From Haliotis asinina (lineage: Eukaryota; Mollusca; Gastropoda; Lepetellida; Haliotidae): 64,000 nucleotides of DNA. The stretch is from NCBI RefSeq assembly GCF_037392515.1, contig NC_090291.1, positions 34,495,001 through 34,559,000 of the forward strand, written 5' to 3'. The position numbers and the translations under genes were made by a program. This document shows, one piece after another, positions 5,690-56,219 of this stretch. The notes beneath the pieces are model-generated. The model did no database searches and was not told the DNA's origin. It was given only the letters and a program-made list of their open reading frames with translations. The stretch's first letter is position 1; each line of letters opens with the position of its first letter.

Positions 5690-8600
5690 TCAGGTGTACT
5701 CCTGTGGTACCAATCGTTCTGAATTCTGCCTCTCGCGCACCGACTTGAGGACAGCCTTGGACCAGGTGAACAAGGACAGTATGAGCAGCAGAGAGACGCC
5801 GCTCTCTATAGTGAGTATATACATCAACCATATTGGAGACATTTCCTGCATCAGGTACCCAATGATTAACGGGTTGATGATACCAGGCAAGGTGGAAGAG
5901 AAGACAATGATCGAGACGATCCTGGACGACAGCCTCAGAATCGACTCCTCCAGCCACATCATCGTGGACGGAAACTGTGAAGCTAGAGACAACCCACCTA
6001 ACGCAACACAGGCCCACACACCAATTTCATTGTCATAGAGAGAGGACATCATCAGACCTACTGCAGACAGGAGCATGGTGATGGAGGTGACGAGGATAAG
6101 AACGAATGGGGGCACACGGTCCGTAAAAAAGATGGTGGCAAACCTCATAGCTGCGTAACAAGCCCAGAATACTGACGTCAGTCTGGCTCCCGATGTCTTC
6201 GTCCAGTTTAGCTGCTTCACCACGAAGGTGAGGAGGAAGGATGCCAAACACGACTCAACAGCTACGAGGAAAATGAAGATCAGAACCACAAATATCATTG
6301 TACCAAAGATATACACCATCGGCAATGGTTTCTCCAGATTTGCGTATCCAGTCGTGGACTTCTGGGTATCTGCTGATTGGGATTTGTGGCAACACCTTTG
6401 GATCAGGAAGGTCAGCGAAGCTACAAGGAACAAAATCCCTGTTATGAGATACGCGTATTCGACTTTTGTTTCTGTGACAACTATATCGCAGTCTCCATTG
6501 TCTACAAAGTCACTGTTGTTCACGCAGATGTTAGAGAGGGGGATGCTTGAGTTGTCTCCCTCTCGTGTATTGTTTGAGCTTGTTCTGTATGCAAGGAAGG
6601 GTTCTGTGATGAGTGGGGAAAGCGTTCCCCCAAGAGCGAAGCAGAAGTGGAGAATCTGAACGAACACTCTTCTTTCAGCTTCCCAAGTCCTTATCAAATC
6701 TGTGTTACCACCTTGAAGAGAAAAATATATGTAAGCAATTTTCTCATTCCATGATGGCCATGCCTTTTTCAAAGAATAGTTACTCGTATCTGAACATTGT
6801 ATGTTGTTACTATGTATCTGAACATAATTTTAAAAAAAGATACAGCCGAATTGTACACATCGTCAAACTCAAAAGAAAATGCGTGGAACTGCTCGTAGCT
6901 GGTGGATCGGGAGTGGCGGTGGTAGAGAAGTGGTTAAAGTGTTATCTCTTCACGCCGAAGACGCGGGTTCGATTCCTCACATGGGTAAAATGTGTAAAGC
7001 CCATTGCTGGAGTCCCCCGCCGTGATATTGCTAGAATATTGCTAAAAGCGGCGCAAAATCATTTTCACTCACTCCCCTAGTGAAATGGATGCGGGTAAAT
7101 CTATCAGACTATCATCTCCAAGTTGTTCCAGTGACACAAACGCTTCAGGCATTATCCAAGTATCACTGCAGTCACTCAGCACATACGTTCGTACTCTTAT
7201 GGTTTAATAATGTACAGACTAAGAACTCGATAGATTTGAAAAATAAAACTTCTGGCGGTGTATTAAAGATGTATTACAGCAGCTTGGTCTGTCGAACTAA
7301 TGGTTGACAACACAAGCATGTCTTAAAACAATCACTAATGGATGTCAACACAAGCATGTTTTAAAACAATCACTAATGGTTGACAACACAAGCATGTCTT
7401 AAAACAATCACTAATTGTTGACAACACAAGCATGTCTTAAAACAATCACTAATTGTTGACAACACAAGCATGTCTTAAAACAATCACTAATGGTTGACAA
7501 CACAAACATGTCTTAAAACAATCGAGTAATTCTGAATAGAGACTGGGACCTATCCTGCCATCACATAGTTGATTAGTGTAAATTATCATGGTGAAAAATC
7601 AACTGTTTATACATTTTCATAAGTGTCATTTGACTGGTGGATTCATGCCGACGCTGAAAGGTGGATGGATGTTAATTGTTTGTTTATATAATGGCAGTCC
7701 AAACAAAAACGGTGATTGATATCATTAGCATCAATCAACGTAACTGGGATACCATGACATGTATCAACAGCGTGATTTGCTGAAGATCAGTTCTAACCTG
7801 GAACTGCTTGGGTTGGAGGTGTGTAATAAAGTGGTTGGGTTGATATATTCGTCGGTTTTAACAGTTTTCAAGTACTATCACGGCGGGTTTACCAGCAATT
7901 GGTTTCACACACTGTACACATATGGGAAATGGAACAGTGTCCTCGGCGTGACGAGCGAACGCTTTAACCACTAGGCTACCCCTCCGCCAGCGGGTGTATA
8001 AGAAACTGGCGCTACCAGCAACGTGAGTGTGAGGGTGAGTCCACCGCTTTTAGCAATAATTCCAGCAACATTACGGCGAGGGACACCAGAAATAGACTTC
8101 ACACATTGTACCCGTGTGAGGAATCGAACCCGGGTCTTCGGTGTGATGGGCGAACGCTTTAACCACTAGGCCACCCTGCCACCCCATCCCACCCCCAAGA
8201 ACGTTATATTACAACCATTAAGTCACTTACAAGTAACGTGTCCAGCCCTGAAGAAGGACACGACGCCATGCATGAAGACCATCAGGATATACGGCGTGCA
8301 CAACGGCAGAACCGCGACAGCTACAGCTGCTCCGAGGAGGATGAGGAACATTAGCAGGTGCTTGTTAAATCGGCCAAACAGGAAACCAAAGGACAAGGAG
8401 CCGCACATGCTCCCGACGGAGGCTCCCGTGAAGAAGACAGCGGACTGCTGGGTGTTGGTGTTAGTGATGAGCTGAAGGTCTAGCAGCGCGGGGCCAGTCT
8501 GGGCATTGCATATTCCCTGTAAACCAAAAGGTGCTTGTGATAATCACAGTTGCATTAACCGTACCGTGATTCAACATGTTGCATGCTTGAGATTGAATTT

Positions 8601-12663: not shown

Positions 12664-15045
12664 AGAGACACTGGCGGAAAGACAGCAGTGCGTGGAGACT
12701 GACGCATCTCTCAACATATGCTCTTCCATTTGGATAGAAAGACGTGACACTGGCGGAAAGACAGCAGTGCGTGGAGACTGACGCATCTCTCAACATATGC
12801 TCTTCCATTTGGATAGAAAGACGTGACACTGGCGGAAAGACAGCAGTGCGTGGAGACTGACGCATCTCTCAACATATGCTCTTCCATTTGGATAGAAAGA
12901 CGTGACACTGGCAGAAAGACAGCAGTGCGTGGAGACTGACGCATCTCTCAACATATGCTCTTCCATTTGGATAGAAAGACGTGACACTGGCAGAAAGACA
13001 GCAGTGCGTGGAGACTGACGCATCTCTCAACATATGCTCTTCCATTTGGATAGAAAGACGTGACACTGGCGGAAAGACAGCAGTGCGTGGAGACTGACGC
13101 ATCTCTCAACATATGCTCTTCCATTTGGATAGAAAGACGTGACACTGGCGGAAAGACAGCAGTGCGTGGAGACTGACGCATCTCTCAACATATGCTCTTC
13201 CATTTGGATAGAAAGACGTGACACTGGCGGAAAGACAGCAGTGCGTGGAGACTGACGCATCTCTCAGCATATGCTCTTCCATTTGGATAGAAAGACGTGA
13301 CACTGGCGGAAAGACAGCAGTGCGTGGAGACTGACGCATCTCTCAACATATGCTCTTCCATTTGGATAGAAAGACGTGACACTGGCGGAAAGACAGCAGT
13401 GCGTGGAGACTGACGCATCTCTCAACATATGCTCTTCCATTTGGATAGAAAGACGTGACACTGGCAGAAAGACAGCAGTGCGTGGAGACTGACGCATCTC
13501 TCAACATATGCTCTTCCATTTGGATAGAAAGACGTGACACTGGCGGAAAGACAGCAGTGCGTGGAGACTGACGCATCTCTCAACATATGCTCTTCCATTT
13601 GGATAGAAAGACGTGACACTGGCAGAAAGACAGCAGTGCGTGGAGACTGACGCATCTCTCAACATATGCTCTTCCATTTGGATAGAAAGACGTGACACTG
13701 GCGGAAAGACAGCAGTGCGTGGAGACTGACGCATCTCTCAACATATGCTCTTCCATTTGGATAGAAAGACGTGACACTGGCAGAAAGACAGCAGTGCGTG
13801 GAGACTGACGCATCTCTCAACATATGCTCTTCCATTTGGATAGAAAGACGTGACACTGGCGGAAAGACAGCAGTGCGTGGAGACTGACGCATCTCTCAAC
13901 ATATGCTCTTCCATTTGGATAGAAAGACGTGACACTGGCGGAAAGACAGCAGTGCGTGGAGACTGACGCATCTCTCAACATATGCTCTTCCATTTGGATA
14001 GAAAGACGTGACACTGGCGGAGAGACAGCAGTGCGTGGAGACTGACGCATCTCTCAACATATGCTCTTCCATTTGGATAGAAAGACGTGACACTGGCGGA
14101 AAGACAGCAGTGCGTGGAGACTGACGCATCTCTCAGCATATGCTCTTCCATTTGGATAGAAAGACGTGACACTGGCGGAAAGACAGCAGTGCGTGGAGAC
14201 TGACGCATCTCTCAACATATGCTCTTCCATTTGGATAGAAAGACGTGACACTGGCGGAAAGACAGCAGTGCGTGGAGACTGACGCATCTCTCAACATATG
14301 CTCTTCCATTTGGATAGAAAGACGTGACACTGGCGGAAAGACAGCAGTGCGTGGAGACTGACGCATCTCTCAACATATGCTCTTCCATTTGGATAGAAAG
14401 ACGTGACACTGGCAGAAAGACAGCAGTGCGTGGAGACTGACGCATCTCTCAACATATGCTCTTCCATTTGGATAGAAAGACGTGACACTGGCGGAAAGAC
14501 AGCAGTGCGTGGAGACTGACGCATCTCTCAACATATGCTCTTCCATTTGGATAGAAAGACGTGACACTGGCGGAAAGACAGCAGTGCGTGGAGACTGACG
14601 CATCTCTCAACATATGCTCTTCCATTTGGATAGAAAGACGTGACACTGGCGGAAAGACAGCAGTGCGTGGAGACTGACGCATCTCTCAACATATGCTCTT
14701 CCATTTGGATAGAAAGACGTGACACTGGCGGAAAGACAGCAGTGCGTGGAGACTGACGCATCTCTCAACATATGCTCTTCCATTTGGATAGAAAGACGTG
14801 ACACTGGCAGAAAGACAGCAGTGCGTGGAGACTGACGCATCTCTCAACATATGCTCTTCCATTTGGATAGAAAGACGTGACACTGGCGGAAAGACAGCAG
14901 TCGGTAGTGACGGACGCATCTCTCAACATATGCTCTTCCATTTGGATAAAAAGACGTGACACTGGCGGAAAGACAGCAGTCCGTGGAGACTGACGCATCT
15001 CTCAACATGTATTTATACTCTTCCATTTGGATTGAAAGCATACGT
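12664..15045 (+). repeat. 79-bp satellite array, about 30 copies
   Basis: Strictly 79-bp periodic from about 12664 to 15045; unit begins 'gacactggcggaaagacagc' and ends 'catttggatagaaagacgt'. I count 30 occurrences of the 'ggcRgaaag' position. Most units are identical except for a G/A at that site (A in copies near 12909, 12988, 13462, 13620, 13778, 14410 and 14805) and aacatatg/agcatatg near 13264 and 14137. The last two copies on the right are diverged and the final one carries a small insertion, the pattern expected where recent homogenisation does not reach an array edge. 79 is not a multiple of 3, so the many 77-codon minus frames are shadows. Confidence 0.98.
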
Positions 15046-28148: not shown

Positions 28149-38385
<10,237 letters not shown>

Positions 38386-40873: not shown

Positions 40874-42170
40874 CAGTATGGTTCAAAATTATTGAGAATA
40901 GCTAAAGCATTTCATATTATTAAAAGAGAACAAATCAGATAAAATTGAATGTATTGTGAAAGTGAACTGACCTTTTCATGTTGTGTAGGTAACAATTTAA
41001 TATTTTATCAAGTCTCCTTGAGCTTCACGGCACAGTCTAAGACGGGTAGGCATACTTCCTATCAGAGAGGTTAGTGTCTCGTGAGTTATGCTGTCCCAGT
41101 ATCGGACCACTTCTCTCTTCATGTCTTCAATTTTTGTCAACCCCTTTTGATTCACACATTCCTTCATCATCCCCCAAATGTTCTCAAAGGGATTTAAGTC
41201 AGGACTATATGCAGGAAATGGTAATGCAGTCACATTTTTCTCCTGAAACCACTGCTTGGCATGTTTTGCGGTGTGTTTAGGATCATTATCTTGCTGCAAA
41301 ATCCAGTCATTTCCATAAAACACATGTGCACTTGGAAGGAGAAAATTATCTAATATGTTAGTGTAGCGTTGACTTGTCAGATTTCCCTCAAACACACACA
41401 GCGGGGTCGTTCCTAATAAGGATATCCCTCCCCATACATGAAACTTTGGGTTGTACTTAGGTCTTCGATACAACGGTGCTGACGCAGACTTTGTCCATAT
41501 TTTCACATTATTGGGATATACCCATATTGAGCTTTCATCAGTAAAAATCACATTTTCCCAGTCAAAGTTTTCATGTGCCAAACACCACTCAACACGCCTG
41601 TCTTTATGTTCTTGTTTCATGAGAGGAGAAGGAATTCCAGTCTTTTCCTCCCATCCAAGATCAATCAAATTTCTTCTAACTGTAGATTTTGATACAGCTG
41701 TTGATCCCCTTTCTATCATTTCATACCTGATGTTGGAGATGCTTGCCCTTTGCTTTTTAGACGCTAAAATTCCCAGCCGGACGCGATCTGAGAAGTCCAA
41801 TTTTCTGGGTCTCCCTGCTCCTTTCTGGTGCCCAAAATCCTTTCCCTCTTTAAAATTCTTCCTAATCCTATACACAGTAGAAAGAGGAGTTCCTGTTCTC
41901 TCTGCCAATGTATTTACATCATCAATTCCTTGATTACACAACTCAAAAATCAACCTTCTTTTATCTTCAGCAGACATTGTTGACAGTGCTGAGGAAAATG
42001 ACGTCTGCTACAAATTCAGGGGAGGTAACTCTAATTGTACTATACTCAGTAGGCCAAGATGAGTTACCTCCCTTATACCATTACTTAGTTTTAAGTATCA
42101 GTGAATCAGTTGAGGTGTTAGGATAGCTCAAAGTAAGAAGAAAAATTCTCAATAATTTTGAACCAGACTA
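40874..42170 (-). mobile_element. Complete Tc1-type DNA transposon
   Basis: Inverted ends of about 26 bp, 'cagtatggttcaaaattatt' with 'gagaat' on the left and the near-exact complement on the right (two differences), each flanked by TA (40872-40873 and 42171-42172), the Tc1/mariner target duplication. Length 1297 bp. Encloses one uninterrupted transposase frame. Matching ends and the open frame indicate a recent insertion that may still be mobile. Confidence 0.93.
40997..41977 (-). CDS. Tc1-type (DD34E) transposase
   Basis: One exon, 326 residues, the usual size for Tc1 transposases. N-terminal helix-turn-helix (about 1-50; LAERTGTPLSTVYRIRKNF) that should bind the inverted ends, an AT-hook-like GRPRK at 56-60, a second HTH-like stretch (SKSTVRRNLIDLGW, 97-109), then the catalytic domain: D147 in FTDESS, D230 in LQQDNDPKH and E265 in PDLNPFENIW, with exactly 34 residues between the last two acids. 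It cuts and pastes its own element at TA sites in the nucleus. All three acids and the frame are intact, so activity is plausible though untested. Start chosen at the first ATG of the frame, 195 bp inside the right-hand end. Confidence 0.95.
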   Translation of the reverse strand: MSAEDKRRLIFELCNQGIDDVNTLAERTGTPLSTVYRIRKNFKEGKDFGHQKGAGRPRKLDFSDRVRLGILASKKQRASISNIRYEMIERGSTAVSKSTVRRNLIDLGWEEKTGIPSPLMKQEHKDRRVEWCLAHENFDWENVIFTDESSIWVYPNNVKIWTKSASAPLYRRPKYNPKFHVWGGISLLGTTPLCVFEGNLTSQRYTNILDNFLLPSAHVFYGNDWILQQDNDPKHTAKHAKQWFQEKNVTALPFPAYSPDLNPFENIWGMMKECVNQKGLTKIEDMKREVVRYWDSITHETLTSLIGSMPTRLRLCREAQGDLIKY

Positions 42171-43269: not shown

Positions 43270-43839
43270 TCAAGCATTCTTTTGGGTTGTTTGGTGGTCC
43301 TGAAAAGGACCGTTGAGATAAGAGTTTTTTAAACTCAATGGATGGGCCCATGAATTGCCGCACATCTTGTCAGGAGTCTTTTTTCCTTTCTGAGAGCCAG
43401 TGTCCACGACTGTAAAGACGTTCTCTGGAATATCAGCTGTAGGGGGATCCAGGATGGTGGTTTCAATCGTAGTTCGTTCACGGTCATCATGGTCGTCTGG
43501 AGGTGGCAGTGATGCTGATGATATATTAATGTCAGATATATCAGGAACCCTTACATCAGCGTCCAGATCCATAGCTTCTTCTTCTGGGGGATTTGACTCG
43601 GCAGTTGATTCCAGACTTAGATGGAAGTTGACGGTGTCCAGCATGTTGTCAAAGGAATTCCCTTCACACCGAACACATACAAAGGGGAAATCTTCTTCAT
43701 TTGCGCATATCTCACGGTAGCGTGATACAGATATACCGGTGCCACAAACTCTGTGAGTCCATAACTCACACTGGTCGCAAGACACAGCATGTTGATTTCT
43801 TCGGACAGTCTTATCGCATACAACACAGTGGTGAGACAT
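43270..43839 (-). CDS. PHD-finger protein fragment within a transposon
   Basis: A 189-residue frame from the ATG before SHHCVVCDK; the frame stays open upstream to an ATG at 43947, but that part overlaps a local tandem repeat. Residues 5-58 make a full C4HC3 PHD-type zinc finger: C5/C8, C21/C24, H29/C32, C55/C58 (CVVCDKTVRRNQHAVSC, CELWTHRVC, FVCVRC). The rest (60-189) is acidic and proline/serine-rich with no known fold. PHD fingers of this kind bind histone H3 tails or, in mollusc transposons, accompany transposase domains I do not see here. It may be the leftover first part of a transposase or a captured host exon. The open frame argues that it is young or under selection. Confidence 0.6.
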   Translation of the reverse strand: MSHHCVVCDKTVRRNQHAVSCDQCELWTHRVCGTGISVSRYREICANEEDFPFVCVRCEGNSFDNMLDTVNFHLSLESTAESNPPEEEAMDLDADVRVPDISDINISSASLPPPDDHDDRERTTIETTILDPPTADIPENVFTVVDTGSQKGKKTPDKMCGNSWAHPLSLKNSYLNGPFQDHQTTQKNA

Positions 43840-43914
43840 TGTGATGAATGATGTGTATCGGGTACATGTCTGCTTTAAATACAGGGTGAAGGGTTTGAAG
43901 GGTGCGATGTTTTT

Positions 43915-44124
43915 ACTTTCCAAACATTGTCGGCAGAGGAGACGCATTTATTATCTAAACATACTACACGCAGCTTGGGTATGAGAAGCACTTTCCAATT
44001 TGTTGGCAGAGTAGACGCATTTATTATCTAAACATACTACACACAGCTTGGGTATGAGAAGCACTTTCCAATCATTGTCGACAGAGTAGATGCATTTATT
44101 ATCTAAACATGATGCAAGCAGCTT
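43915..44124 (-). repeat. 73-75-bp tandem repeat inside the PHD transposon
   Basis: Three copies of 'gacgcatttattatctaaac' with 'cagcttgggtatgagaagca', period 73 then 75 bp. Confidence 0.9.
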
Positions 44125-44449
44125 GGTGAGTGTTAGTGTTATATATTGATGGGCATACTTACCTGATATATTCCTGATATATTATTTATTTATATTTATA
44201 TTTATATCAATGTTCATCCAAAGTTCACAATCCAATAACGTCTACTTACCTAATATATATGTTTTTATTTCACAAAGTCTATTTATGAAACACTAAATGT
44301 TTATCCAAAGTTCACAATACAATTAAGTCATCATATCAATGCTCATCCTTTTTAAAATTGTATATGGTGACGTTTTTGCCATAACATTTGTAGCCGTTTT
44401 CGCCAAGGGAAGGTGCCGTTTTGCTGTGGTGACGTGTTAGCCTGCACCC

Positions 44450-47349: not shown

Positions 47350-50300
47350 ATGAAGCTATCTCCAATTTTATCACTGCTGAAAGGACTCCGACACTCTCCA
47401 ATGACACACGCCTTATCCCGTTATTCCCTGCTCCCTGTCACTAGACTGTGTATATGTCGAAGATATTTTAGTGAACTTAAAGCAACAAGAAGCAGTCACG
47501 TGATTCCTCTGTTCCTCAAAGCAGAGGAACATATTGGGAGGACAGCAATTGTCGACCAAAACAACCGGTTCACTTATGATGACATTTTGCACTATAGTTC
47601 CTTGTTGTCACAGAAAATTATCAACAGATGTAATGGAAATCCCAAAACTGGGATAGACGGTGCAAGAGTGACATTTCTGTGCGAGAATGACATTTCATAT
47701 GTGGTTGCACAATGGGCAACGTGGATGTGTGGCGGTGTGGCAGTTCCATTGTGCAACTTGCACTCAGATTCTGACCTGACGTACTATATCCAAGACTCCC
47801 AGAGTTCTCTGCTTGTTACCACAGCAAAATTTGCTGACAGACTACAACCAATCTCTGAAGACCTGATGATCCAAATTGAGATACTACAAGCGTCAGACTA
47901 TATGGGGTCATATGATCGAGATCAGAACAGCTGGTTCCTCTCAGATAATCCTGCACCCAGCAACAAGAAGGAGAGGAGGCGGAGCAAGAGTCGCTATGAT
48001 GATCTACTGGCCACCAATCAGTACAAGCGGGAACCAGCAATGATTGTGTACACAAGCGGCACGACTGGTCGACCAAAAGTAAGAGCTCAAAATAAGTGAT
48101 CTTCTGTAGTCCTTTTATATATGTATCAACCATGCTTTTCCTGTTATAGTGAGTGAGTGAGTGGGTATGGTTTTACTCTTCTTTTAACAATATTCCAGCA
48201 ATATCAGTGCAGGGGACCAGAAATAGGCTCCACGCATTGTACCCATATGGGGAATGGAACCCAGATGTTTTGCATGTTGTGCAAACTCCTTAACCACTGA
48301 GCTACCCCTTCATTATCCCGGGTTTTACCTTTATAGATAAAAGAAGGCATGAAGTTGGCACCCAATTACTGTACTGATTGCAAAGGTCCAAAGAGGAAAT
48401 ATCGCCATGAATAGCTGCAATATTGCTGATGCGTCATAAAGCAACTTTCATTCATTCTTCCCTCACTGGCTGTTGAGGTTAGAGCATCTGCAGAAAGCAG
48501 AAAGTCATGGGTTTGATCCCCAGTCACGTCATACCAAAACACGTCAAACTAAAGTACTTGTTGGTGCCTGCCTGGCACTTGACATTAATGAGTACAACAA
48601 GGACTGGTTGGTTCGGAGTCCGTATAAACAGTCCGAGTGGGGTATTCATGCTTAACTGCGGCATGGTATCTCAGTGAACTAACACTATAACACCAGCTTG
48701 AGTTTGACTCATGAATTTGATGCAGTAAATATTGTGCATCCTATGGGACGACATGTAAACACTTGTGAGTTGAAGTAGAAAGTACATAAACACCACAATC
48801 CATTCCATAAGAATTAATCAGTGTCATTTTTATATGTGATAGATGATGTTTAAAATACCAACCCACAGCCCAACAAGAAGATGCAAATGAATAATGTCAT
48901 CTTTTTTTATGGATGTATTAACCTGAGGGAAAACTTTACTTTAAATGTAATATCCTGAACTTCTGTGTTGAGGGCGTGGTGCTGAGTCACGGCAACCTAC
49001 ATGCCATGATGTCAGGCATGATATCGGCATGGGAGTGGCAGCCCAGTGATGTCATCCTTCACGTCCTTCCACTACATCATGTGCACGGCATCGTCAATGT
49101 CCTCATGACTCCACTCTTTGTCGGAGCCACATGCGTCATGATGCCAAGTTTTAATGCAGCAAAGGTAAACAAAATCTCCATTTCTGTTAAATAGTATTAG
49201 AAACATTCAAACAAAACCATGACAAGTTAGTGTAAGTGGCCATTGCATTCACCAAGTGTGGTTCCATGCCTTTCCCAGTGTCCAGGAAGGCTGCTAAATG
49301 AAGATATTTTTGGAATACAGGTCCCTGAACTCTTTTAAGTCCACAAAGGTAGACAAATGCATTCTTTTTCCAATGAGCTCTAGATATTCACATCAATATT
49401 GAACGGCAAAAGAAGAAGAGTTTTAAAAAACTGAAATCTCAAAATAGTAAGTGTTCGTGTAATGTGTTTTATTTAGAAACTTGACAAGAAGACGGAGATT
49501 TGTTCCTTTTGCCGCTCAGTATTGTTAATATGAAATCATTCCACAAATACATTGCGGGAATGTAAACTCTATGAACTTTGCCATGTCGCTGTTCAATGTG
49601 AGTGGTCTTGAGACACTTTATCCATGGGAGACATAAATGTAATGTGTCCACCTTGAAGCAACTGCAAACTGACAAATAGGCTGCAACAGAGTATATTACT
49701 GTAGGAGGCTTTATCAGGCAATGATAACTGACATGTAACGCCAATTGAATCGTGACGTAATGCAGAGGTGTTCAGTTACAAGGGGCAGACTAGAATGGCA
49801 CAGGGACAGATATACATTGTGACGTAATGTACATTATCGTCTGATAAAGTACTGTTGGCACCTTTGATCTTTCACCCAAAGCATCTTAGAATCTACTTCA
49901 TTGACATACTAATGACATAATGCTACAAATGCCTCATGGAGAGGGCTCTAGTACAGGTATTAATCAAACTAACTGACAATTTATTGTCACATTTTGATAT
50001 TCATTGATTTAAACAATATTTGGAATTTGGGAGACTGTTAAAATTTCAACTTAAATAATATTGTTTGTTTCTTGTGATGTTTCTCTATGCAGCTTACTGC
50101 AACGTCACGGTTCAAAGTTTAGATAGAGATGTTTAACAGAAGGGTATGATCCTTGCCTTCCACTAGGTATGGTCAAAGTTGACCAACTTCCTCCCGGGGG
50201 ATGTGCGCATCAATGTATTCATGGCTGTCCCAACAATCTACGCCAAGCTGCTTCAGTACTACGATGCAGAGTTCAACCAGGAGAGGAAATTCAGGAAGAG

Positions 50301-53300
50301 TATGGCCTTCATCAAGAGTGCTTGTTCCAGCAGAATCAGGTCAGGGACTGGCAGCTGAATATTGATGGGGATGTATGTTTATTAGTCTAATGGTGAGATG
50401 GTCTTTGATGTATGTTTGGCAGGCTGATGGTGAGCATGTATTTGATATATGTTTGGTAGATTGTTGGTGAGCAGGTCTTTGATGTATGTTTAGTAGGCTG
50501 ATGGTGATAAGGTCTTTGATATATGTTTGGCAGGCTGATGGTGAACAGGCCTTTAATGTATGTTTAGTAGGCTGATGGTGATCAGGTCTTTGATGTATGT
50601 TTAGTAGGCTGATAGTCAGAATGTATTTGATGTATGTGTAGTAGGCTGATAAGAGGGTAAGATTCTTTATGGATAACAACTTCTTTATTGCATATGATGT
50701 GACGTTTCGGTATGGATCCTTGTACCGTTGTCAATAAAGAAGTTGTTATCCATAAAGAATCTTGCCCTCTTATCACTTACCAGCTTCTAGTAATGCCAAT
50801 CAAACAAATCGTGTAGTAGGCTGTTGGTGAGCAGGTATTTGATTATATTATCTGCTGTTGGGTGATGATGAGCAGGTCTTTGATGTATGTTCTGTAGGCT
50901 GATGGTGAGACGGTCTTTAATGTATTTTGGCAGGCTGATGTTGAGCAGGTCTTTGATGTGTTTGGTAGGCTGATGGTGAGACGGTCTTTGATGTATTTTG
51001 GCAGGCTGACGGTGAGCAGGTCTTCGATGTGTTTGGTAGGCTGATGGTTTGAACCTCTTTGATGTGTTTGTTAGGATGATGGTGAGCAGGTCTTTGATGT
51101 ATGTTTGGTATGCTGAAGGTGAGAACCTCTTTGATGTATGTTTAGTAGGCTGATGGTGAGCAAGTCTTTGATGTTTGTTCTATAGGCTGATGGTAAGAAT
51201 CTCTTCAATGTATGTTCTGTAGGCTGAAGGTGAGAACCTCTTACATGTATGCTCTGTAGGCTGATGGTTAGTGGTTCCGCTGCACTGCCTGAACCAATCA
51301 TGAAGGAGTGGGAGGAGGTCACAGGTCATCGGCTGTTGGAGAGATACGGGATGACAGAAATCGGCATGGCGCTGACCAACCCACTGCATGGTCCCCGCAT
51401 TCCAGGTGAGTGAGTAAATCAGGTTTTCAAGCGCTCTTCTAGTATAGGCACAGACCCGCCGAGGGGTGTAAATGCTCCTGCATAGGATGTACAGCACAGC
51501 CTGCCAGGGTGGTGCCAACAATCAGATAGTGAAATATTTTTATGGTTTCTTTTTCTGCTTTTTCTTTTTTGTATTTTTGTGTTTTACAATTCACTTGTTC
51601 ATAATATGCTTATGCCTGATTGATGTCTGAAACATAGATAAGGTTGGTGACAGCCTGATGGCTGGTGGTATGCCATTCCACATGACGATATTCTTGGGGA
51701 GGAAGCTTTGGAGGGGGAGTTCTAATTTCCATTATTTGTGCAATGTCATTATTAAATGATGCTCTTGTGTAGGTATCATGAATGTAGTTATGTAGGTCAG
51801 TAAAGATGATGTTATTTATGACCATGTGAAAAAAAAGATGGCTGTGGCCAAAGTTGTCCTAAGTTGGAGGGTTTCCCATCCAAGGTGTTGTAGGATTGCC
51901 GTAACACAACCTTGACCATAATCAGGCCCCCCTAAGTAATTGAAGGAATTACAGCAAATTTGAAGGAATTGCATCTCAAATGTAAACAAACACAGCCCAC
52001 TCGCAAAACTATTGCAGCCATATCGGCAACTTAGCGGTAATAACTGAAACACATCGGCCATATCGGAAGCAATGTCGGTAATACTTGAAACACACTTGGC
52101 CGTCTTCGGAGATTTTTCGGCTCACATGATTTGTCGGTGGTGAACGGAAACTCACGCAGCAAAAACATGGCGTCGTTCGAAGAAGCACCCGTCTCGGTGA
52201 GTTTTGTTTTTAGTTCCTACTATTACATTTTTATACTTATCCATCTTTGTCCACCCTTGTTGAATGCGTTTAGGTATGAGGTGTTGTTGGCGCTATCGCT
52301 TATTTTTTTAGGAAAAGACATGTCCCTGGAGGTTGTTTACATTGCTTCCGATATGGCAGATGTGTTTCAGTTATTACCGCTAAATTGCCGATATGGCTGC
52401 AATTGTTTCGCGAGTGGGCTGCGTTTGTTTACATTTGAGATGCAATTCCTTCAAATTTGCTGTAATTCCTTCAATTACTTAGGAGGACCTGATAATCAAT
52501 GTAATTATTACACACAAATCTGGCTGCTTGCCTCTGTACCTCCTCCAAAGTATTTACAAGATGTTGATAAAGGTCCCAAACTATGGAGGCATATTCCATG
52601 ATGGGACGAGCGAGGGTGGTATGAGCGCATGCCCTCACTTCTTCAGGGTAAGGTCTAAGGTTGCAGGAAACTACAGTTCTGGTGGCCTTGGCTGCGGTGC
52701 TGTGGATATGTGTCTTCCAAGAAAGGTCACTTGTATTATGCAGGTTGAATGGTTTCTAAGTTGAGTCCATGAAGGTTGTACTAGTTGCGTAATATTTTCC
52801 AGTACTTGGAGATGTGCATGGTTAGGCATTTGGATGGATTAAAAGCCGTTTGCCATCTTTCCCTTTTCTGAAAGTTATTCAGGTCCTTCTGCAGTGTGAG
52901 ACAGTGTGATGGATTTTGTATGTGTCTAAATATAATACAGTCATCTGCAAAAAGTTGTACTTCTGAGTCCACTGAGTTTGGTAGGTCGTTGATGTAGATC
53001 AGGAAAAGTAAGGGGCCAATAACTGTACCCTGTGGTACACTGGATAATACATCAGCTTCAGAGGATGACATCCCATCGAGAACATCTGTATATTTCCTTT
53101 TCTTCAAGAAATCTTCAATCCATCGCGGTGTGTTGTTACGAATGCCGTAGTGATGTAACTTAAGGATTAGCCATTGATGCGGGACTTTATTGACGTCCAG
53201 CAGTATCATATCCATCTGCTTCCCTTAGTCTACACTCTGAAGGAGTTGGTGGATGGTCTGGACCAAATGGGTTCACAGAAACAGCGGCTCCTAAAACCAT

Positions 53301-56140
53301 GCAGACGATCAGATAAGAGAACGTGAGAGTGTAGGTGTGATATTATAGAACTATAGAGAATATGCTCTGCCAGCTTGGAGCATATAGCAGATAGTGGTCT
53401 GTAGTTCGCAGTTACTGACTAATCTCCTTTCTTGAAACCTGGAGTGATATTTGTAGATTTTCATTCCGATGGGACCAAACTTGAATCCAAAAAGAGTTGG
53501 TAAATAAGTGCAAGCGCAGGTGCAATGATTATGTCCACTTCCTTCAATAGTCTTGGCGAGATAGAGTCAAGGCCAGAGGCATTGTGAGGGTTTAGTCCTC
53601 TGAGCAGCATAAGGACTCCTTCGGAACTGATCACAATTCCAGACATCTCTGGGTGTGATCCAGGAGGCAAGCTAGGTCGACTTGTTAGGTCCTCTTTTGT
53701 CTACACAGAGCTGACTTGGGAGTTGAGAATTTCACCCTTACCAGTAGCATCACTAGTCAACAAACCTCTTGCGTCTTTCAGGGCCCCCACGCCTGAGGCT
53801 TCCTGCTGTGTACTCTTGATGAATGAGTAAAACTTCTTGAGGTTACTCTGAAGGTCCCAACACATGAATTGTGATGGATATTGCAACGGGCCTCATTCTT
53901 CATACTCTTATATGTTGACCAGTCTCTGTCTTTACCTGTACATTTTGCTTTGGTATGCACAGTCTCTGCATCTTAGGGGAAGATGGATGGTAGTATAGTA
54001 GTAGTTGTGTGTCTGGAGTGTGTCAGCTTATGCAGAACGTTATCTGACTGTATCTTTAGGAGGTTAGTATGGAAATCCTCCCACATAGGATTAACATCCT
54101 TGAAGGATGAACTAGTATTCATAGGATGGATCCTACATTTTGGTGGCATTTAGGTAGGGTGATAAAAAAGATGGGGAACTACTGTATTTCAAGAGCAAAC
54201 ATCTTATAGACCCACTTCAAGGTACAATATGGTTTAAATTTCACAGCTTGAGTTGGGAGGGAGGGTTGTCACATGTGAGGAGTGTCATTTAGTATATTTC
54301 TGCTGTGTTTTCTGCCTCAAATTGATTGTGACACATGTGAACATGAAGGAACTGTAACTACTCACTTAGTAGTGTTTGTGGTGTAGTGATTCTTATTATG
54401 ATAGTATGAGCTGACAGCAGATGTTGTTATTGTGATGTAAGCAGATGTTATTGTGATGTCAGCAGAGGCTGTTATTGAGATGTCAGCAGAGGGTGTCCTT
54501 GTGATGTCAGCAGAGGGTATTCTTGTGATGTCAGCAGAGGCTGTTATTGTGATGTCAGCAGAGGCTGTTATTGTGATGTCACCAGAGGTTATTGTTAATT
54601 GAAACCTTGAGTCAAGTACCATATCTTCCTAATTCCATGTTATATTGTAACATTTTTTGTTTCAGGCTCCGTTGGTCAGCCATTCCCTGAAGTGGAGGTG
54701 TGCATAGTGCAGCAGAACGTCTATGCTGAGAACGGCTACGACATCCAAGTACATGGAAACTCCAGAACCACCACAGTCTACAGAAGTAAGACTTGCCATC
54801 CTTTATGTACATGAATATGTATGACTCTGGTCAATGGTGGTTCTGTAGGAGGTTATCTAACTTGTTCCAGGGTCGCATTTGCTCATCATGACAAAGACCT
54901 GGCTTTGATTTCCCACATGGGCACAATGTGTGAAGCCCATTTCTGGTATCCCTTGCCATGATACTGCAAGAACATTGCATCAAGCAGCATTTTTCAATGG
55001 TTACTATTTCTTAACATATATTTCTTTGGTTTGAGAGTAGAGTCTTATACTACATACACTGCTGATATGCGTGTGCTACATTTTCCAGGTGGAGAGCAGG
55101 GCGAGCTGCTGGTCCGAGGGCCGAGTGTGTTCCAGAAGTACTGGGGTAAACCTGAGGCCACACGTCAGGCTTTCACCAAAGATGGATGGTTCAAAACAGG
55201 TAGATCGTTCTAGATGATGTATGTTCAAAACAGGCAGATGGTTCCAGATGGTGTGTGTTCAAAAGAGGTAGATCGCTACAGATGATGTCTGTTGAAAACA
55301 GGTCGATTGTCACAGTTGTGTTCAAAGACATTTGGCTCAAAACAGGTAAACAGGTATAGATAATGAATTCATTTCATCTTCCATAATGCTTATACATTTT
55401 GACTTCGACCACTCTACTCTCCATTCTCACTGAAATGTATCGAACAAATTACAGTTACTAAAATTGGTGGCTTCTTTGGCTTCGTTATAACACCATACAA
55501 TACAACCTAACAAGCATGCATACTCACATGTTCCCGGACACACTACAAGCATCAATGCATGCGTGCCCACACAGTCTCTTCAAGTCTGACTTCCTGGGAC
55601 AGTAGGGTAGCCAAGTGGTCAAAGGGTTTGCTCATCACCTGGTTTGATGCTGCACATGTGTGCAATGTGTTAATCCAGTTTGTATTGTCCCCTGCCATGA
55701 GATTGCAGAATATTGCTAAGAGCAAAGTAAAACTCAGTCACTTACTCACTCATGTTTTCCTCCCAGGAGATACAGCCTTGTATAAGGATGGCGTGTACCA
55801 CATCATGGGGCGTACATCAGTGGACATCATCAAGAGCGGGGGCTACAAGATAAGTGCCTTGGATGTAGAGCGCCACCTACTGGCTCATCCAGACATTGTG
55901 GACTGTGCTGTGATTGGTCTGCCAGACATCACATGGGGCCAGAAGGTGGCAGCCATCTTGGTTTGCAAAGAAGGTCGAGAGGTCAGCATTGCAATGTTGA
56001 AAGAATGGGCCAAAAATTACATGCCGTCATATCAGATTCCCACCGTCGTCAGGTGTGTGGAGAAAATGCCCCACAATGCTATGGGAAAAGTCAACAAGAA
56101 AGAAATTGTTGAAATAGTTTTTCCAGAAACTGTGAAGTGA
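47350..56140 (+). CDS. ACSF3: Mitochondrial acyl-CoA (malonyl-CoA) synthetase, ACSF3-like
   Basis: Seven coding exons with closed phases: 47350-48078, 48973-49164, 50167-50339, 51260-51405, 54666-54785, 55089-55199, 55767-56140. Product 614 residues (human ACSF3 576). The first 45 residues are basic, serine-rich and free of acids until SELKA, as in a mitochondrial presequence. ANL-family motifs in order: [12 protein letters not shown] at 232-243 (intron falls right after K), LPLHHVHG in exon 2, [10 protein letters not shown] and [12 protein letters not shown] in exon 4, [10 protein letters not shown] and GWFKTGD across exons 6/7, [16 protein letters not shown], and AMGKVNKKE with the C-terminal catalytic lysine. 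It should activate malonate (and methylmalonate) to the CoA ester with ATP in the matrix; substrate is inferred from overall ACSF3 resemblance. The frame is open further upstream to an ATG at 47194, over simple repeat, so I chose 47350. Introns 3 and 6 hold splice-site-like tandem repeats. Confidence 0.93.
48149..48311 (-). mobile_element. SINE-B copy in ACSF3 intron 1
   Basis: GTGAGTGAGTGAG tail, 'ttaacaatattccagcaata', body, head ending 'ccactgagctacccctt' as read on the plus strand. Confidence 0.85.
48400..48458 (+). mobile_element. SINE-A tail fragment
   Basis: 'atcgccatgaatagctgcaa' and 'tattgctgatgcgtcataaa' match the shared SINE 3' tail. Confidence 0.55.
48462..48690 (+). mobile_element. 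tRNA-derived V-SINE-like element (cf. RUDI)
   Basis: tRNA-like head with box A 'tggctgttgaggttagagca' and box B 'catgggtttgatccccagtc', then a conserved middle 'acaaggactggttggttcgg' and end 'cagtgaactaacactataa'. The layout matches a SINE class widespread in molluscs that I associate with the V-SINE family RUDI; that name is from memory. Confidence 0.65.
49165..50166 (+). other. ACSF3 intron 2
   Basis: GTAAAC donor, ...CACTAG acceptor. No repeat or embedded gene recognised. Confidence 0.6.
50375..51259 (+). repeat. 37-bp minisatellite of acceptor-like units in ACSF3 intron 3
   Basis: Roughly 20 units of 'gtaggctgatggtgagcagg' plus 'tctttgatgtatgttt' (32-38 bp) run directly into the true exon 4 acceptor, which is the last unit: '...tgctctgtag' then GCTGATGGTT. 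Almost every unit therefore has a TAG/CAG followed by GCTGATG and then GTGAG. A 127-bp fold-back element interrupts the array at 50648. Confidence 0.93.
50648..50774. mobile_element. Fold-back MITE inside the intron 3 array
   Basis: Arms of 43 bp with about one mismatch: 'gataagagggtaagattctt' with 'tatggataacaacttctttattg' and its complement. The 41-bp loop contains 'gacgtttcggtatggatcct'. Confidence 0.93.
51560..54130 (-). pseudogene. Jockey/CR1-like LINE, 5' truncated, in ACSF3 intron 4
   Basis: Minus-strand translation in several frames gives, in order: [17 protein letters not shown] (near 53920), [11 protein letters not shown] (53830), [19 protein letters not shown] and [18 protein letters not shown] (53461-53640), then in 52781-53215 [31 protein letters not shown] and the catalytic FADD (52940-52951), a thumb region near 52500-52700, and a C-terminal tail near 51610-51910. 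The block equal to DFSKAFDKVPH in relatives reads DVNKVPH, so an active-site acid is missing; frame changes and stops are numerous. No endonuclease domain. A TIR element is inserted at 51923-52491. Inactive; antisense to the host gene. Confidence 0.85.
51923..52491. mobile_element. TIR element with 150-bp arms and a first-exon-like core, inside the LINE
   Basis: Arms 51923-52076 and 52339-52491 are inverted copies starting CAGGCCCCCCTAAGTAATTG / CAGGTCCTCCTAAGTAATTG; flanked by ATAAT on both sides (51918-51922, 52492-52496). LINE sequence continues on each side. The core holds 'aaaacatggcgtcgttcgaa', an ATG in good context followed by ten codons and a consensus splice donor (CGGTGAGT). Confidence 0.88.
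54413..54594 (+). repeat. 24-bp tandem repeat in ACSF3 intron 4
   Basis: About seven copies of 'gatgtcagcagaggctgtta' plus 'ttgt', exact 24-bp period. Because 24 is a multiple of 3 the minus strand reads as an eight-residue peptide repeat, which is an artefact. Confidence 0.93.
54868..54992 (+). mobile_element. SINE-B fragment in ACSF3 intron 5
   Basis: Degraded box B ('ctggctttgatttcccac') and body 'gtgtgaagcccatttctggt'; tail eroded. Confidence 0.7.
55190..55360 (+). repeat. 34-bp donor-like tandem repeat at the start of ACSF3 intron 6
   Basis: The exon 6 end plus donor, 'ttcaaaacaggtagatcg', recurs at 55224, 55258, 55292 (34-bp period) and 55336. Each copy keeps a donor-like GTAGAT, GCAGAT, GTCGAT or GTAAAC after CAG/GAG. 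Confidence 0.88.
55600..55752 (+). mobile_element. SINE-B copy ending just before the exon 7 acceptor
   Basis: Head 'agggtagccaagtggtcaaa', body, tail 'gctaagagcaaagtaaaact' then CAGTCACTTACTCACTCAT. Only 14 bp separate it from exon 7, so its CT-containing tail adjoins the acceptor tract. Confidence 0.85.
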
Positions 56141-56219
56141 CAAAATGCCCCTCAATGCTATGGGAAAAGTCAACAAGAAAGAAATTGTTGAAATAGTTTT
56201 TCCAGAAACTGTGAGGTGA
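56063..56219 (+). repeat. 79-bp direct duplication of the end of the ACSF3 last exon
   Basis: Copy 1 56063-56141 contains the last 26 codons including the stop; copy 2 56142-56220 repeats it with a handful of differences at most. Copy 2 is after the stop and in another phase. Confidence 0.95.

Follow-up and report, generated by a model that had tools for sequence, protein, structure and literature searches.

A long minisatellite seeded at an exon boundary in intron 3 of an ACSF3-like gene of Haliotis asinina

An intron of an ACSF3-like gene in Haliotis asinina holds a real, long minisatellite that was seeded at an exon boundary. Arrays of this kind are already known from lancelets, where amphioxus "mirages" are described as minisatellite-like tandem duplications across an exon–intron boundary (PMC3087553, in the portion available). 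We consider it probable that the array in the abalone gene is such a mirage, seeded at the exon 4 acceptor and grown into intron 3, and that the true acceptor is still the one mostly used. New here are this array, a second mirage at the exon 6 donor of the same gene, and one mirage each in an ALDH gene and an ABC-transporter gene, both from a sample of 78 loci. No mirage in a mollusc was reported by title or abstract opening in the literature that we searched, which covered few subscription papers. These arrays carry mirages beyond lancelets and suggest that, rather than being peculiar to that group, they are to be expected wherever the seeding of minisatellites near exons is dense.

The host gene and the array in its third intron

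The window, as we call the whole stretch of 64,000 nucleotides analyzed here (C12:34495001-34559000, in a 1.14-Gb genome of 159 contigs; positions below count from its first letter), carries seven coding exons on its plus strand. Placed at 47350-48078, 48973-49164, 50167-50339, 51260-51405, 54666-54785, 55089-55199, and 55767-56140, they join into a reading frame of 614 codons with a single terminal stop. Exon 3 ends in the donor CAG|GTCAGG, and exon 4, located by frame and by alignment to PDB sequences, begins with (R)LMVSGSAAL. The limits of intron 3 (50340-51259, 920 nt) and exon 4 proposed in the earlier note, which was made from the sequence alone, are borne out by this seven-exon, 614-aa frame.

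What does the gene encode? The top five PDB matches (4fuq, 4gxq, 4fut, 4gxr, and 3nyq) are malonyl-CoA synthetases or chimeras of one, with E values from 9.6e-66 (4fuq) to 1.6e-60 (3nyq), and the top NCBIfam model is the malonyl-CoA synthase PRK07514.1, at 327.5 bits, under its curated cut-off of 558. By these matches the predicted protein lies nearest to malonyl-CoA synthetases of solved structure, which fits an ACSF3-like enzyme, the name ACSF3 being that given in the earlier note. Intron 4 contains a reverse-transcriptase fragment on the minus strand (52784-53224; RVT_1, E 1.2e-14).

The repeat array and one inserted element fill nearly all of intron 3. TRF reports arrays of period 37 at 50370-50650 and at 50816-51268, the latter reaching into exon 4. 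The 5' block (50370-50650) carries acceptor-like anchors at 50386, 50423, 50460, 50497, 50534, 50571, 50608, and 50645; in the 3' block (50816-51259) the anchors run from 50820 to 51223, with a 74-bp higher-order period from 50863. Altogether 20 anchors lie upstream of the true acceptor, and their 20 spacings are 37 bp (13 cases), 36 bp (2), 35 bp (3), 41 bp (1), and 175 bp (1), the last spanning the inserted element. Because anchors 50645 and 50820 sit in an identical 13-base stretch on either side of that element, they are probably one unit that was split and copied by the insertion, which leaves ~19 units plus the true junction. The earlier count of about 20 units was thus nearly right, but the size range of 32-38 bp given with it was not: the units measure 35-41 bp, and none of the 20 spacings is 32 or 38 bp.

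How intact are the splice-like signals of the units? AG is retained at 18 of the 20 anchors, GT stands seven bases past the AG at 17, and both are present at 16, whereas the exact arrangement of AG, seven nucleotides, and GTGAG occurs at 10. A row of decoy acceptors does precede the real one, as the earlier note had proposed, but its statement that nearly every unit offers TAG/CAG, then GCTGATG, then GTGAG was too strong. Among the decoys, the AG/GT columns have a mean identity of 0.95, compared with 0.84 for the other columns, and rank 2, 9, 10, and 18 of 37. The splice-signal columns are not eroded; they give no sign that the decoys are harmful, nor any sign that they are unused. The window has 18 occurrences of the 14-mer AGGCTGATGGTGAG at up to two mismatches, all of them lying in the array or on the true junction; chance predicts 0.44 occurrences, and none of 100 shuffles reached the observed number. 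A genome search with 50816-51268 matched this locus alone, although such a search skips very common words and leaves uniqueness unproven. Pairwise identity among the 19 units averages 0.751 (range 0.59-0.97); in this one assembly it is 0.781 for adjacent units and 0.790 for units two apart.

The inserted element (50649-50810, ~162 bp) has an internal palindrome and is dispersed in the genome. Identical 13-base stretches (50636-50648 and 50811-50823) flank it and are probably its target-site duplication; since they carry an anchor variant, GTGTAGTAG, that is absent from all other anchors, the insertion probably copied one decoy acceptor. In the whole-stretch genome search, in which 40 of 1352 candidates were scored, the element accounted for all matches away from the locus (query 284-476); these made ~100 rows, with several rows per copy because the element is palindromic. 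When the element was aligned with five other loci, target-site duplications of roughly 9-12 bp could be seen by eye around three (L002, L005, and L006), and none was evident by eye around the other two (L003 and L008).

The match between repeat units and the exon 4 junction

Does the true junction belong to the array? To score it, we built a profile from the decoys alone and took as background the plus strand outside 50300-51450 and the entire minus strand. The true junction copy (51241-51277, plus strand, 37 nt) comprises intron positions -19 to -1 and exon 4 nt 1-18; it scores 23.2 bits, a value reached at 0 of 126,777 background positions. Separately, the score of exon nt 1-10 is matched at 0 of 126,831 positions, that of exon nt 1-18 at 2 of 126,815, that of intron -19 to -1 at 14 of 126,813, and that of intron -19 to -4, with the YAG left out, at 310 of 126,819 (0.24%). 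Exon nt 10-18 by themselves are within chance (11,782 of 126,833, or 9%). The claim that the array grew from the exon 4 acceptor, with the true junction as its last unit, is upheld by the junction score, and the contrary supposition, that the exon 4 start resembles the repeat no better than chance, fails on exon nt 1-10.

How far into the exon does the unit reach? The exon agrees with the repeat consensus at 14 of its first 18 nucleotides and then at 0 of 12 (nt 19-30), and of the four mismatches within the first 18 (nt 10, 13, 14, and 16), three fall on third codon positions (nt 10, 13, and 16). Because nt 10-18 alone are within chance, it is this pattern that points beyond nt 9, and the exon part of the unit probably extends to about nt 18, as judged from the sequence. 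The sum of 19 intronic and 18 exonic bases is 37, the commonest unit length.

Read in the frame of the exon, the unit consensus gives RLMVSRS, where exon 4 has RLMVSGS. The donor-like GTGAG of the units was correctly recognized before, but its origin lies in the Val-Ser codons of exon 4, now GTT AGT, and the exon part probably runs to about nt 18 rather than stopping at nt 10. Nor does the exon copy differ from the repeat only in this donor-like part, as had been stated: it also differs at exon nt 13, 14, and 16 and at intron positions -17, -16, and -8, where the true copy has an A, a C, and a C, respectively, each found in 0 of 19 decoys. We also asked whether the array ages away from the junction, and rejected the idea: across 18 of the 20 anchors (the two beside the element were excluded), similarity to the junction has no trend with distance from it (Spearman -0.06 for the intronic part, p 0.81; -0.35 for the exonic part, p 0.15; -0.11 in total, p 0.67).

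Origin of the array and its predicted effect on splicing

The likeliest account is chance seeding at exon edges, in a genome where minisatellites abound, while selection keeps the exon side fixed. A tandem duplication of ~37 nt, taking in the last 19 nt of intron 3 and about the first 18 nt of exon 4, would have seeded the minisatellite, and slippage or unequal exchange would have lengthened it, on the intron side only because coding selection holds the exon side. Each unit would have inherited the acceptor together with the first exon codons, whose Val-Ser happens to read GTGAG. The spliceosome would most likely pick the terminal acceptor and mostly pass over the decoys, and transcripts from occasional decoy use would run into early stops and be lost as noise. 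In this account we infer the reach of the seed past exon nt 9 and the mechanism and direction of growth.

Could the likeness of units and exon have arisen otherwise? An array that originated independently in the intron, and that resembles the exon 4 start only through a shared splice-acceptor and codon consensus, would sit well with the chance-level score of exon nt 10-18 alone; it is highly improbable given a junction score reached nowhere in the background and an intron segment (-19 to -4) reached at only 0.24% of positions. Similarity alone cannot give direction, and the exon boundary might instead have shifted into a pre-existing array, so that exon 4 now begins with array sequence. However, the (R)LMVSGSAAL of exon 4 aligns without gaps, around rlfisgsa, to bacterial malonyl-CoA synthetases of known structure in the PDB; the exon side is thus old protein sequence, we take the exon as the source and the array as its derivative, and a shifted boundary becomes hardly credible. 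Equally hard to credit is an assembly artefact in which copies were inflated or mis-joined: tandem arrays are often mis-sized, but the 19 units have diverged (mean pairwise identity 0.75), a dispersed element lies inside the array, and the genome search gave one locus.

A functional alternative is that decoy acceptors and donors divert transcripts into early-stop forms according to unit number, and so lower gene output. The retained signals (AG at 18/20 anchors, AG plus GT at 16/20) and the uneroded splice-signal columns favor it, as do splice-site scores, which we computed with approximate human matrices. By these approximate matrices, the true acceptor ranks second of 63 AGs, itself counted; decoy 51186 scores above it, decoys 50898, 51223, and 50423 are at most 0.5 bits away, and the GTGAG decoy donors score 7.6-10.7, compared with 8.3 for the real exon 3 donor. 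There is also a human precedent in the 31-bp VNTR of CBS, for which more units are reported to go with lower enzyme activity (PMC5188458, as far as its available text extends). Against it, a further AG lies 1 nt upstream at 6 of the 20 anchors, the AG-free zone of 8 lacks a YTNAY motif, and regular splicing is reported for lancelet mirages in the available portions of PMC3087553 and PMC3902484. On balance, we think such modulation unlikely. Less likely still is a broader version, in which this genome has many boundary-seeded minisatellites, some of them, acting as rheostats, tune mis-splicing into early-stop forms by their number of decoy units, and exons or introns are occasionally born from them, the 30-nt in-phase candidate at 55316-55345 being a possible instance; if it were true, splicing output would be a fast-evolving repeat-number trait.

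How, then, would the true acceptor be told from its copies in a boundary-seeded array whose decoys are mostly passed over? The true site alone has CTTAC, a branch-point-like YTNAY, at -20 to -16 in its AG-free zone, and it is the A at -17 and the C at -16 of the true copy that create it; the A of this motif is just 17 nt from the exon. Some YTNAY motif is present in the AG-free zone of 12 of the 20 anchors, mostly TTGAT near -15, so CTTAC marks a difference of quality, not of kind. Among the 8 anchors without such a motif are the 6 with an AG 1 nt upstream.

We modelled decoy use as single extensions and single seven-base inserts. When exon 4 is extended to any one of the 20 anchors, including those that lack an AG, a stop follows within 10-82 nt (the extension is a multiple of three at 7 of the 20), and when any of the 20 seven-base segments is inserted, one follows at nt 16; the normal stop, for comparison, is at nt 748. 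All modelled forms stop early; used in these ways, the decoys could do nothing but reduce output. By analogy with the lancelet cases, splicing would be expected to proceed normally despite the decoys, and the effect of the array on splicing is probably small. The eighteen AG decoys, a few with scores close to that of the true acceptor, stand before an exon of ancient, conserved sequence and make the locus a natural test of AG choice by the spliceosome.

Known boundary repeats and other arrays in the gene and genome

How does the array compare with known systems? In the amphioxus mirages (Adh3, the globins BflGb6 and BflGb9, TnC, and PGBD5), units likewise span a boundary on the acceptor or donor side, and many but not all keep AG/GT, according to the parts of the reports available; one of these, PMC3902484, adds the PGBD5 mirage and cites Adh and TnC. 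The available text of PMC3087553 gives a unit range of 10 to 160 bp, mentions RT-PCR that suggested regular splicing, and proposes a role in intron gain. The array here shares the unit layout, unit size, and retained signals: its unit spans intron -19 to -1 and exon nt 1 to ~18 (nt 1-10 firmly), its units are 35-41 bp long (13 of the 20 spacings being 37), and AG is kept at 18/20 and AG plus GT at 16/20 anchors. In contrast to amphioxus, the host is a mollusc, a dispersed element lies within the array, and there are ~19 units in one assembly, compared with 6 and 3 in the two haplotypes described for BflGb6 (PMC3087553, same portion). The CBS VNTR is also a repeat of ~30 bp at an exon–intron boundary, but it lies at the other exon end (exon 13/intron 13) and comes with allele and enzyme-activity data (PMC5188458, available text), whereas our array is known from sequence alone. 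Human exon–intron boundary repeats are discussed in PMC2812944, and an abalone TSSK1-like gene is described in PMC6905558 as having a 27-bp minisatellite of variable number in an intron, with no mention of an exon boundary, each in the portion available. A search of the present genome for this 27-bp repeat, at up to two mismatches, found no match. In the known intron-creating case, one duplication gives a new intron, whereas here many copies enlarge an existing one; the array offers material for modelling how introns grow and how tandem duplication gives rise to new ones. The minisatellite of IFI6 (6-16) reportedly supplies multiple splice donor sites and is similar in offering many splice sites, which are donors there and stem from an acceptor here.

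A second boundary-seeded array (55181-55345, plus strand) lies in the same gene, at the exon 6 donor (55199|55200). Junction-like copies recur at 55234, 55268, and 55302, in 34-bp steps, and at 55346, after a 44-bp step; three of the four have GT. The last copy of this array, at 55316-55345, lies between CACAG and GTAAAC and is a candidate 30-nt in-phase exon. A 79-bp tandem duplication at the end of coding exon 7 (56060-56219, plus strand; 76/79 identical) was considered as a third mirage of the gene and rejected, as it spans the stop codon and not a splice site.

Are such arrays found at other exons of the genome? We drew 78 loci from four Pfam searches (AMP-binding, 15 of 15 matches; ALDH, 13 of 13; myosin, 30 of 125; and ABC, 20 of 20) and scanned them for tandem duplications crossing the end of a coding match; these are Pfam match ends, not proven exon ends, and the scan can miss arrays. 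Two boundary-crossing duplications were found, both repeating a donor boundary. One, in an ALDH exon (L027), has a 43-bp unit at 1738-1850 with the donor at 1752|1753; the other, in an ABC-transporter exon (L086), has a 45-bp unit at 1624-1751 with the donor at 1665|1666, in three repeats that are in frame, with a stop in the third copy. Judged from the sequence and from what is known of family members, both boundaries are probably the real donors. The sampled loci are not independent: 11 of the 15 AMP-binding loci are stop-free frames of >500 codons, and a single cluster on C5 holds 23 of the 30 myosin loci.

Do exon edges attract arrays? Tandem duplications straddle 3.5% of random flank points at the AMP-binding loci, 7.8% at ALDH, 1.7% at myosin, and 6.2% at ABC. 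At no more than two edges per locus, the rates for ALDH, myosin, and ABC (63 loci) predict up to ~5.5 straddled edges, and 2 were found, so the idea was rejected: exon edges are not enriched for tandem arrays over nearby random points. In the ACSF3-like gene, which was not randomly chosen, 2 of 12 splice edges are straddled.

Elsewhere in the window, a 73-bp tandem repeat of 2.9 copies (43915-44126) lies over the 5' end of a minus-strand open reading frame (43273-43947) with a PHD match under the cut-off, and is a possible exon-edge array. A very regular 79-bp array (12667-15008; 29.6 copies, 98% match) has overlapping minus-strand open frames of 78 aa. The domain scan covered 20 open reading frames: 19 of the 118 listed outside the gene, at least 75 aa long, and one in intron 4. 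On the minus strand it returned a transposase-like frame at 41000-42007 (DDE_3, E 1.7e-16) and two frames that are each probably an exon of another gene, at 5693-6829 (MFS_1, E 4.7e-9) and at 36516-36809 (MIT, E 9.9e-16).
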